From Gracilinema caldarium DSM 7334 (GTDB lineage Bacteria > Spirochaetota > Spirochaetia > Treponematales > Breznakiellaceae), in contig NC_015732.1 of assembly GCF_000219725.1 (NCBI RefSeq), positions 1,302,001 through 1,366,000 on the forward strand: a DNA stretch of 64,000 bases, given 5' to 3'. The notes below the pieces were generated by a model. It saw only the letters and a list, made by a program, of their open reading frames with translations, searched no databases and had not been told where the DNA came from. The translations under genes and the position numbers were made by a program. The first letter of the stretch is position 1. Every line of letters begins with the position of its first letter. Shown here piece by piece: positions 2-49,550 of the stretch.

Positions 2-199
2 GGTGTAGGGATAGAAATGGTGGTTCTCGATGCGTTAAGTCTCAGGGCTGGAATCGCCGATGCCTTGCCTGCCCTTGGGTTTGGAATAGACTTTTCGGTG
101 ATGCAGTTTGATTTTGCTATGCGAGGTGTTGAGCTCGGCCTTGATCCAGGGGTACAGACAACCTATGCGGTGGATCTGGGACTTATTTTTAGGTATTAA
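2..199 (+). CDS. C-terminal end of an outer-membrane beta-barrel protein (partial)
   Basis: The gene is cut by the left edge and the open frame runs from base 2 to the TAA at 197-199, giving about 65 residues. They show alternating hydrophobic and polar strands (for example FGIDFSVMQFDFAM) and end in an aromatic residue (LIFRY), as is typical of the last strand of outer-membrane barrels recognised by BamA. It could belong to the spirochaetal UPF0164/PorV-like group, but that cannot be settled from the tail alone. The barrel reading is an inference from strand pattern and C-terminus. Confidence 0.6.
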   Translation, partial: GVGIEMVVLDALSLRAGIADALPALGFGIDFSVMQFDFAMRGVELGLDPGVQTTYAVDLGLIFRY

Positions 200-46254: not shown

Positions 46255-47250
46255 ATGAATCCGGTCCGGATTAAGGATGCACCGGCAATTCCGGTGGTCC
46301 TGCTCTTCGGTCCTACTGCCTCCGGAAAAACTGCCCTTCTGGAAGAACTTTTTGCAGACCATAATGCACCTATCCCTGCAGAAATAGTCTCTGCCGATTC
46401 CATGCAGGTCTATCGGGGCATGGATATCGGTACTGCAAAACCATCCCACGAACTTCGTACCCGTCTGCCCCATCATCTCATCGATATATGTGATATTAAA
46501 GAGCAATTTACGGTTGGAGACTTTGTCCGACATGCGGATGAGGCCTGCAGGGATATTTTCAGTCGAGGAAAACTGCCGGTAGTATCGGGTGGTACGGGTT
46601 TTTATCTCAAGAACTTTGTGCTTGGTCTGCCTGCAGCTCCGCCATCGGATCTGGATATACGAAACACCCTTAAGGAAGAACTTGCCGAATACGGTGTTGA
46701 GCCTCTTATTAGGGAACTTCGTGCAGCAGATCCGGTAAGTGCAGAACGGATTCACCCTAACGATACCTACCGGCTTCTCCGGGCCCTGGAAGTATATCGT
46801 CTGACCGGACGGCCTTTAAGCAGTTTTCCCACTTCCGGAACCTCCGGGCAGGAAGGTGCTCCGGAGCGACCAGCCTACCGGTTTTTACTCATTGGTTTAG
46901 AACGGGATCGGACTTCCCTCTATGACCGCATCAATCGGCGGACCCATCAGATGTTTCTCGAAGGACTTCCTGAGGAAGTATCTGGCCTCGTTGCCCGGGG
47001 CTACAAACGAGAAGACCCGGGAATGAGGGCAATCGGTTACCAGGAGTTTTTTCTTGAAGATGGCAGTCTCTCCCACGACCTGACCCTTGTGGAGGAATTG
47101 GTTGCCCGTAATAGCCGCCGATATGCAAAGCGGCAAATCACCTTTTTTGCTTCTCTTCCGGAGGTCACCTGGATAGCCGCTGAAAAGGAAGGTAACCTGC
47201 CAGCGCAGATTAAAAAGCTCATATCCAGCTGGTTCAGCCAAACCCCTTGA
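46255..47250 (+). CDS. miaA: tRNA dimethylallyltransferase
   Basis: MiaA adds dimethylallyl to A37 of tRNAs reading UNN codons. The 331-residue protein has GPTASGKTALLEEL (P-loop, about 16-30), SADSMQVYRGMDIGTAKP, GGTGFYLKNFVLGLP, and RRYAKRQITFF near the C-terminus. All signature motifs are present. The gene follows the omega-like gene, and its stop overlaps a candidate promoter for the next small gene. Confidence 0.97.
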   Translation: MNPVRIKDAPAIPVVLLFGPTASGKTALLEELFADHNAPIPAEIVSADSMQVYRGMDIGTAKPSHELRTRLPHHLIDICDIKEQFTVGDFVRHADEACRDIFSRGKLPVVSGGTGFYLKNFVLGLPAAPPSDLDIRNTLKEELAEYGVEPLIRELRAADPVSAERIHPNDTYRLLRALEVYRLTGRPLSSFPTSGTSGQEGAPERPAYRFLLIGLERDRTSLYDRINRRTHQMFLEGLPEEVSGLVARGYKREDPGMRAIGYQEFFLEDGSLSHDLTLVEELVARNSRRYAKRQITFFASLPEVTWIAAEKEGNLPAQIKKLISSWFSQTP

Positions 47251-47275
47251 CCTTTTATCGTCTCTCATTCATACT
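47247..47275 (+). promoter_or_regulatory. Putative promoter of the bS22-like microprotein gene
   Basis: TTGACC (47247-47252, over the miaA stop) and CATACT (47270-47275) are 17 bp apart. It would give an 80-base leader before the GTG at 47360. That leader contains two CCACCTG copies and a possible short stem. Confidence 0.5.
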
Positions 47276-47359
47276 ATATAAAGGTTTGTTGCCACCTGGC
47301 TACGAGGTACCACCTGTTCGGTTCGACGGGATTCATCTTACTGCAAAGGAGACTCTGAA

Positions 47360-47449
47360 GTGCCCTGCGGAAGAAAGCGGAAGTTAAAGAAGATCGCTAC
47401 CCACAAGCGGAAGAAGAAGCTCAGAAAGAATCGGCATAAGAATAAATAA
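47360..47449 (+). CDS. Tiny AURKAIP1/COX24-type basic protein (bS22-like)
   Basis: This 29-residue gene starts at GTG with AAAGGAG eight bases upstream. The product is almost entirely Lys/Arg/His, beginning MPCGRKRK and containing IATHKRKKKLRKNRH, which I recall as the conserved core of bacterial AURKAIP1/COX24-domain microproteins such as mycobacterial bS22 and the near-identical proteins of Bacteroidetes. It likely binds the 30S ribosome. It has its own promoter and terminator. The gene is easily missed because of its size. Confidence 0.85.
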   Translation: MPCGRKRKLKKIATHKRKKKLRKNRHKNK

Positions 47450-47483: not shown

Positions 47484-47520
47484 AACCGCGGGTACTAAGT
47501 ACCGACGCGGTTTTTTTTTT
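47484..47520 (+). terminator. Strong rho-independent terminator after the bS22-like gene
   Basis: AACCGCG (47484-47490) pairs with CGCGGTT (47506-47512), and an inner stem GGTAC/GTACC (47491-47503) stacks on it with loop TAA. A run of ten T follows from 47511. It isolates the microprotein gene from dxs. Confidence 0.93.
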
Positions 47521-47621: not shown

Positions 47622-49550
47622 ATGCAAAAGCACGCCTATACCGTTCTGGAGACGATTCAGGATCCAGGACAATTAAAAACTTTAAACCATTCGGAATTAT
47701 TGGAATTAGCTAAAGAAATTCGGCATGTCATTATCCACACCGTAAGTAAAAATGGCGGACACCTGGCAAGCAATCTGGGAATTGTCGAACTTACCATTGC
47801 CCTTCATCGGGTGTTTCAGAGTCCAGAGGACAAGATTGTATTTGATGTAGGACATCAGTGTTATCCCCATAAGCTTCTCACAGGCCGCTATAAACATTTT
47901 CATACCATACGAAAAAACAAGGGTATTTCCGGCTTTCCGAAACGGTCAGAAAGTGTACATGATGCCTTTGATACGGGACATGCATCCACATCCATTTCGG
48001 CAGCCCTCGGTCTACTGGCCGGTGAAACCTTGCTTGGAGGGAATAATCATGTCATTGCAGTTATCGGGGATGGCGCCTTAACCGGAGGCCTTGCCTACGA
48101 AGCTCTGTCCCATGCAGGACACCTGCAATTACCGCTTATTGTAATATTGAATGATAATAAAATGTCGATTAGTCCCAATGTTGGAGCCCTGTCAAAACAT
48201 TTGAGCAGGCTCACCATGACCGGGAGCTATCAACGGATACGAACAAAAATTGACCGGCTGATAAAAAAAATACCCATCTTTGGAAATCAGCTCTATAACC
48301 TCGTAGTTCGGCTTAAACGAAGTATTAAGGTGCTTTTTTATCCGCAAAATTTCTTTATTGAAATGGGTTTTGAATATGTGGGCCCCATCGATGGCCATAA
48401 TCTTTCCATGCTCGAAGATGTCCTTCAGGATGTGAAAGCTCTGAACAAGCCCGTTGTCGTACATGTTATTACCCAAAAGGGAAGAGGATATAATCAGGCG
48501 GAAAAGGACCCATCAAAATTTCATGGTATTGGGCCCTTCTCTGTAGAAGATGGGCTTGTCGAAAAAAGCTCTGGTCCCGCTTTTACCGATGCATTCGGAA
48601 ATGCCCTTGTTGCTATCGCTCAAAAGAATCCTTCGGTTATAGCTATTACCGCCGCCATGGAAAAGGGTACCGGCCTTGCCCAGTTCCATGAACAATTTCC
48701 TGACCGGTTCTTTGATGTAGGTATTGCAGAAGCCCATGCAGTTACCTTTGCTGCAGGTCTTGCGGCTCGGGGATTAAAGCCCGTGGTAGCAATCTATTCA
48801 TCATTTATACAGCGTTCTGTCGATTCGGTTATCCACGATGTGGCAATACAGAATCTGCCCGTAACCTTTGCTTTTGACCGGGCCGGATTTGTGCCCGATG
48901 ATGGGGAAACCCACCAGGGCCTCTTTGATATAGCCCTGTTCCGTTCTGTGCCTCATCTTGCCTTGCTGGCTCCTGCCTCAGCACAGGAGCTGGATCTCAT
49001 GCTCCAATGGTCTATCGAATCAGGAAAACCTTCCCTGATCCGGTATCCAAAAGCCGCTTGCCCATCTGAACACAGCGCTTTTTCTACGCCTCTTATAGAG
49101 GGGCGGGGTGTCTTTGTACATCAGAATTATGCTGAAACCTGTATTATGTTTACTGGTAGCCTCTATCCACAGGTTGAAGAAGCCCTTGAGTTACTTGCAA
49201 TAGATGGGTATTTCTGTGATAGCTATAATATTCGTTTTATAAAACCTTTAGATGAAACATATCTTATCTCAGTGATGCGAATTTATAAACAGATTGTGGT
49301 TGTAGAGGAAGGTATGAAAAATGGTGGAATTGGTGAACATCTGGGAATCATACTGTCCCATCATCTATCAACCATTGCTTTTCTACATCTTGGTAGTTGC
49401 GATACGTTCCATTCGCAAGCTACGAGAAAAGAATTATTGGCACAGAATGAGCTTGATGCCATAGGTCTTACAAAACGGATCAAAACATTTCTTAACAAAA
49501 CTATACAGAGCAAATTGTATTCAAATAGTTTAAGGGTTGTTGGAAAATGA
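47622..49550 (+). CDS. dxs: 1-deoxy-D-xylulose-5-phosphate synthase
   Basis: DXS condenses pyruvate and glyceraldehyde 3-phosphate with thiamine diphosphate, the first step of the MEP isoprenoid route. The 642-residue protein has GGHLASNLGIVELT, DVGHQCYPHKLLTGR, GDGALTGGLAYEAL (TPP-binding GDG), and the transketolase C-terminal domain with RAGFVPDDGETHQG. The family start fits the ATG at 47622, although no Shine-Dalgarno is present. It heads a seven-gene plus-strand unit. Confidence 0.96.
   Translation: MQKHAYTVLETIQDPGQLKTLNHSELLELAKEIRHVIIHTVSKNGGHLASNLGIVELTIALHRVFQSPEDKIVFDVGHQCYPHKLLTGRYKHFHTIRKNKGISGFPKRSESVHDAFDTGHASTSISAALGLLAGETLLGGNNHVIAVIGDGALTGGLAYEALSHAGHLQLPLIVILNDNKMSISPNVGALSKHLSRLTMTGSYQRIRTKIDRLIKKIPIFGNQLYNLVVRLKRSIKVLFYPQNFFIEMGFEYVGPIDGHNLSMLEDVLQDVKALNKPVVVHVITQKGRGYNQAEKDPSKFHGIGPFSVEDGLVEKSSGPAFTDAFGNALVAIAQKNPSVIAITAAMEKGTGLAQFHEQFPDRFFDVGIAEAHAVTFAAGLAARGLKPVVAIYSSFIQRSVDSVIHDVAIQNLPVTFAFDRAGFVPDDGETHQGLFDIALFRSVPHLALLAPASAQELDLMLQWSIESGKPSLIRYPKAACPSEHSAFSTPLIEGRGVFVHQNYAETCIMFTGSLYPQVEEALELLAIDGYFCDSYNIRFIKPLDETYLISVMRIYKQIVVVEEGMKNGGIGEHLGIILSHHLSTIAFLHLGSCDTFHSQATRKELLAQNELDAIGLTKRIKTFLNKTIQSKLYSNSLRVVGK

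Follow-up and report, generated by a model that had tools for sequence, protein, structure and literature searches.

Two questions are raised by a short open reading frame on the forward strand of the Gracilinema caldarium genome: what is its 29-residue product, and why does it start with GUG behind a promoter and a ribosome site that are otherwise strong? All coordinates at this locus refer to the window, i.e., the whole 64,000-nucleotide stretch of DNA that was analyzed.

Architecture of the locus

The gene occupies positions 47360-47449 (+), running from a GTG (47360..47362, +) that is retained across class Spirochaetia to a TAA stop, and its product, MPCGRKRKLKKIATHKRKKKLRKNRHKNK, is strongly basic (Lys/Arg-rich), with a length of 29 residues in a family that ranges from about 28 to 33. 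The first-pass annotation had credited this frame with a strong ribosome site, a promoter and a terminator of its own, and a conserved core. Its ribosome site is confirmed at exact coordinates as a Shine-Dalgarno sequence AAAGGAG (47345-47351, +) placed 8 nt before the GTG, and the core is present as claimed, reading THKRKKKLRKNRH. No in-frame ATG, GTG, or TTG occurs upstream of this GTG before the stop codon at 47279. The promoter (47247-47275, +) comprises a -35 element TTGACC, a spacer of 17 nt and a -10 element CATACT, and overlaps the stop codon of the upstream gene; the 84 nt that separate the -10 box from the start codon (47276..47359, +) contain the 5' leader. Downstream lies a strong intrinsic terminator (about 47484-47520, +), a hairpin of the form AACCGCGGGTAC..GTACC..CGCGGTT with a T run and a folding energy of -18.6 kcal/mol (RNAfold), which was not listed by a simple terminator scan of the sequence. 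The upstream neighbor is a 331-aa frame (46255..47250, +) that we take to be miaA (tRNA dimethylallyltransferase) from its sequence character and the earlier annotation, and the downstream neighbor a 642-aa frame (47622..49550, +) that is presumably dxs (1-deoxyxylulose-5-phosphate synthase). Matches to the small gene in the G. caldarium genome amount to a single copy.

The product is ribosomal protein bS22

A phmmer search of solved structures with the 29-residue protein recovered as its best match the bS22 chain 8fmw_V (E = 4.1e-10; 26 of 27 aligned residues identical or similar), followed by the bS22 chain 7jil_5 (E = 3.7e-6) and by 9i5v_10, a chain called an AURKAIP1/COX24 domain protein (E = 7.2e-6). 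A profile built from 16 homologs retrieved the same three chains at 1e-13 to 2e-11 and, beyond them, only the mS38 chain 8a22_BC (E = 0.96 over 17 positions). We take 8fmw_V to be from Borrelia burgdorferi and 7jil_5 from Flavobacterium, the source organisms being drawn in part from PMC10618245. A homolog at 867605-867691 of one further genome (G231) starts exactly where that paper places the start of the B. burgdorferi bS22 gene.

Curated domain models are silent on this family: Pfam and NCBIfam gave no match for the 29-residue protein, and the cut-off of Pfam COX24_C (PF08213) was not reached, with 5 of the 16 homologs matching it weakly (best E = 0.17), so that the sequence link of the G. 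caldarium protein to mS38/COX24_C is weak. This silence, together with a composition of low complexity, is what might speak for a spurious frame or for a basic nucleic-acid-binding peptide unconnected with the ribosome; given the near identity to a modeled ribosomal chain and conservation throughout the phylum, we regard such readings as highly improbable, and in practice they are refuted by the phmmer match to the Borrelia chain. The gene thus almost certainly encodes the small-subunit ribosomal protein bS22, and judging from these sequence matches there is no reasonable doubt left about its identity as a member of a known family, whose GUG start was already known for Borrelia. The first-pass reading of a bS22-like, likely ribosomal protein is thereby supported.

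Predicted placement on the ribosome

The Borrelia protein was modeled in cryo-EM density, its gene being unannotated and starting with GUG, and PMC10618245 describes it as an analog of mS38 and eL41 and as an essential candidate. It sits in a pocket formed by the 16S helices h2, h27, h44, and h45 and contacts 23S H68; the same pocket is occupied by Mycobacterium bS22, mitochondrial mS38/AURKAIP1, and eukaryotic eL41 (PMC10618245). Mass spectrometry of purified Borrelia ribosomes detected every ribosomal protein except bS22 (PMC10618245), and the identification there therefore rests on density and sequence. By extension from Borrelia, the G. caldarium protein would likewise form a lysine/arginine-rich bent helix in the 30S RNA pocket of h2, h27, h44, and h45 and touch H68 upon subunit joining, thereby linking the decoding helix, at its base, with the neck and with the intersubunit face. 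The 16S and 23S nucleotides lining the pocket are expected to be conserved among bacteria at large and would therefore say little about the placement.

The B. burgdorferi gene (bb0822; 8FMW chain V) resembles that of G. caldarium in sequence over the 27 aligned residues, in length, in its GUG start, and in having miaA directly upstream (L073). The two differ by the substitutions A13S and L21R within the alignment and by a C-terminal end that is somewhat longer in Borrelia. The Flavobacterium johnsoniae protein (7JIL chain 5) is homologous over all 29 residues, although only about two thirds to three quarters of them are identical.

Phyletic distribution and gene neighborhood

Conservation between related genomes, the lack of which the first-pass annotation had named as grounds for abandoning its reading, is borne out: 52 of 58 near relatives give a match at E<=1 (for 51 of these E is no higher than 3.1e-8), and so do 360 of the 389 sampled phylum genomes at E<=0.01. 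All 40 genomes of another search carry it as well, these having been chosen among already positive ones. The 29 phylum genomes lacking a match at that threshold are, for most of those listed, drafts, and when 23 genomes that had initially given no match were searched with a profile, 3 came up at E<=1, 2 of them at E<0.001. One genome of another class (G079; a single contig, 99% complete) remained negative even in the profile search, and for this reason bS22 is probably dispensable in some lineages. In this genome, as in some other nearly complete ones from other classes of the phylum, bS22 is seemingly absent and bS21 present. A pattern scan of named genomes extended the family, among the matches listed, to records titled Bacteroidota, Chlorobiota, Ignavibacteria, Omnitrophota, Neomarinimicrobiota, Cloacimonadota, WOR-3, Fibrimonas, and the PVC group.

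The signals around the gene were compared over 98 loci of class Spirochaetia, a non-random set made up of the 50 best-scoring matches, 40 loci picked by hand, mostly one per genus, and 8 from a further search. Of the 98, 56 carry a strict promoter pattern (TTGACn-16..18-YATANT) in the 150 nt before the gene, against a shuffled mean of 0.125 (maximum 2) and none in a control region taken downstream. Equally many, 56, are followed within 150 nt by a terminator-like hairpin, against 4 in a control region. The -10 boxes of these 56 promoters are mostly CATAAT or CATACT, with C rather than T as the first base. The first-pass expectation of a flanking miaA holds in part: the link is real, with miaA directly upstream in at least 27 of the 98 loci, and is not universal; dxs lies downstream in at least 51, and at least 65 have one or the other, all three counts being lower bounds from tblastn of the window proteins against short flanks.

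An AGGAG/GGAG-type Shine-Dalgarno sequence precedes nearly all of the listed homologs in the class. The leaders upstream of it match no Rfam family, and across the class they differ in length and fold, with no shared structure seen; regulation of bS22 by a leader RNA was rejected on these grounds. The motif CATCTTA in the leader recurs in only part of one family (f1). A stretch GGATTCATCTT, at 47316-47340 of the window, returns in the bS22 leader of part of the family (loci L005, L006, L013, L015, L017, and L026), where in some cases it can base-pair with codons near the start of the gene; this is not a class-wide property.

The GUG start is conserved across Spirochaetia

Among the 98 class loci the start codon of bS22 is GTG in 83, ATG in 14, and TTG in 1, and GTG is the majority start in 19 of 24 families. 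Loci in other classes of the phylum start with ATG in 18 of 20 cases, one row (L116) having been dropped from an initial 21. The pattern scan of named genomes, a second sample that overlaps in part with the class loci and could accept ATG or GTG starts only, points the same way among the matches listed: of 116 loci counted (118 before L172 and L237 were dropped), 97 begin with ATG and 19 with GTG, the latter in 18 of 20 records titled spirochaete, Treponema, or Borreliella and in only 1 of 96 with other titles, the remaining 95 having AUG.

Might this pattern reflect no more than a GUG fixed once in the ancestor of the class and kept by inertia? The kinship of the sampled genomes and a family with ATG at both of its loci (f19) are in keeping with that. 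On the other hand, A-to-G is a one-step transition and both codons are present within seven families (f1, f3, f7, f8, f10, f12, and f13), yet GTG has stayed the majority in 19 of 24; we judge inertia a rather unlikely explanation.

The comparison with other ribosomal protein genes was made in 41 chosen genomes, with start codons of each control family read at its 30 best-scoring loci. bS22 in these genomes has GTG in 32, TTG in 1, and ATG in 8. The controls keep ATG in 30 of 30 (uS15, read by eye), 30 of 30 (bL36), and 26 of 30 (bL34; 22 directly and 4 via a short N-terminal extension that starts with ATG). Fisher tests of non-AUG starts in bS22 against uS15, bL36, and bL34 gave 5e-13, 5e-13, and 1e-8, values that are too small since related genomes were treated as independent, for which reason the family count is the safer measure.

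Given that the promoter and ribosome site are otherwise strong, the conserved GUG might either hold bS22 synthesis down or let it respond to the condition of the 30S subunit. Under the first of these alternatives the codon would merely tune the amount: with promoter and ribosome site both strong, so short an mRNA would yield too much of a sticky, basic peptide, and a weaker start would bring output to one bS22 per 30S with no feedback. The strong Shine-Dalgarno sequence of most class loci and the promoter found in over half of them fit this account, as do the Bacteroidota loci, which, unlike those of Spirochaetia, mostly have a weak or no Shine-Dalgarno sequence and use AUG. Against it stands bL36, about as short as bS22 and with AUG throughout the 30 best loci, although its genomic setting differs. 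We hold simple tuning to be a credible account, if one that falls somewhat short of probable.

Weak starts on bS20 and IF3

Weak starts in Spirochaetia extend to other genes whose products act on the 30S subunit. At the best 30 loci of the 41 genomes, read by eye, bS20 starts with TTG in 18, GTG in 8, and ATG in 3, one being unread (L301-L330), and IF3 with TTG in 26, CTG in 1, and ATG in 3 (L391-L420), 2 of the 26 TTG cases having an ATG directly upstream. G. caldarium itself has GTG on bS21, TTG on bS20 and IF3, and ATG on uS15, bL34, and bL36. E. coli infC, which has an AUU start and is controlled by IF3, is a case in which autoregulation through the start codon has been shown. A parallel to bS22 is gamma-proteobacterial rpsT: it too is a single gene for a 30S protein (bS20) in contact with h44, and its weak UUG/GUG start is specific to certain clades (PMC10931766). 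The two proteins are unrelated, and the autoregulation of rpsT is itself debated, its weak start being believed to serve that end with compelling proof lacking, according to PMC10931766.

AUC and AUA at the start position of bS21

The conserved start position of bS21 (rpsU) in Spirochaetia shows ATC in 14, ATA in 11, ATT in 1, ATG in 6, TTG in 4, and GTG in 3 of 39 genes (L331-L360, L451-L459); this looser reading covers 39 of 40 genes, a stricter filter leaving 5 of the 40 unread. Of the 35 strictly read genes, 33 have an extended Shine-Dalgarno sequence, GG[A/G/T]GGTGA or GGGGTGA, ending 4-8 nt before that position. Three genes (L344, L359, and L456) have no ATG, GTG, or TTG within 30 codons upstream in frame, and another (L333) has stop codons immediately before the start position. 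For most others the nearest alternative is a GTG within the Shine-Dalgarno sequence itself, usually in frame, which is too close to be served by that same Shine-Dalgarno sequence. With isoleucine codons from the interior of these genes as reference, the start position holds an excess of ATA (p = 0.001) and a deficit of ATT (p = 0.002), kinship being ignored in both tests. The bS21 loci of other classes, of which 11 of 30 were readable by eye (17 unread, 2 misaligned), have ATG in 7, TTG in 3, and GTG in 1. This arrangement suggests that initiation of a ribosomal protein gene at AUC/AUA is likely a class-wide feature of Spirochaetia.

The extended Shine-Dalgarno sequence is shared with Flavobacterium rpsU, for which there is evidence of autoregulation through it (PMC9976891). 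The AUC/AUA starts are an addition in Spirochaetia, which the available text of PMC9976891 mentions only for extra Borrelia bS21 copies.

A candidate start-codon-controlled set

Since weak starts are shared by genes whose products set 30S initiation, these genes may sense initiation stringency. More specifically, 30S subunits without bS22, bS20, bS21, or IF3 might initiate more readily at weak starts, such that a shortage of any of these would boost its own gene in an autoregulation via the start codon. The contrast between bS22 (33 of 41 non-AUG) and the controls (non-AUG in 0 of 30, 0 of 30, and 4 of 30) is consistent with such sensing, as are the mostly weak starts of bS20 (26 of 29 UUG/GUG), IF3 (about 26 of 30 UUG), and bS21 (26 of 39 AUC/AUA/AUU), and the precedent proposed for rpsT. 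Arguing the other way are the leaders without shared structure, the ATG at 14 of the 98 class loci of bS22, and a choice of weak codon that differs from gene to gene. We consider sensing through the GUG possible but doubtful.

On that footing we tentatively propose that bS20, bS21, bS22, and IF3 of Spirochaetia could constitute a start-codon-controlled set, with main starts of UUG/GUG, AUC/AUA, GUG, and UUG, respectively, uS15, bL34, and bL36 keeping AUG; subunits lacking one of the four would translate these messages better, and bS21 would be the class-wide AUC/AUA case. Neither the class-wide conservation of GUG on bS22 nor its weak-start companions turned up in the literature searched, and both look new.

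Implications

As curated Pfam and NCBIfam models miss bS22, inventories of the spirochaete ribosome and lists of essential genes are likely incomplete, and as the GTG inside the bS21 Shine-Dalgarno sequence is usually in frame, annotated bS21 N-termini in many spirochaetes may be wrong. Beyond an annotation nuisance, the conserved weak starts offer a testable idea on how spirochaetes may balance their initiation factors.
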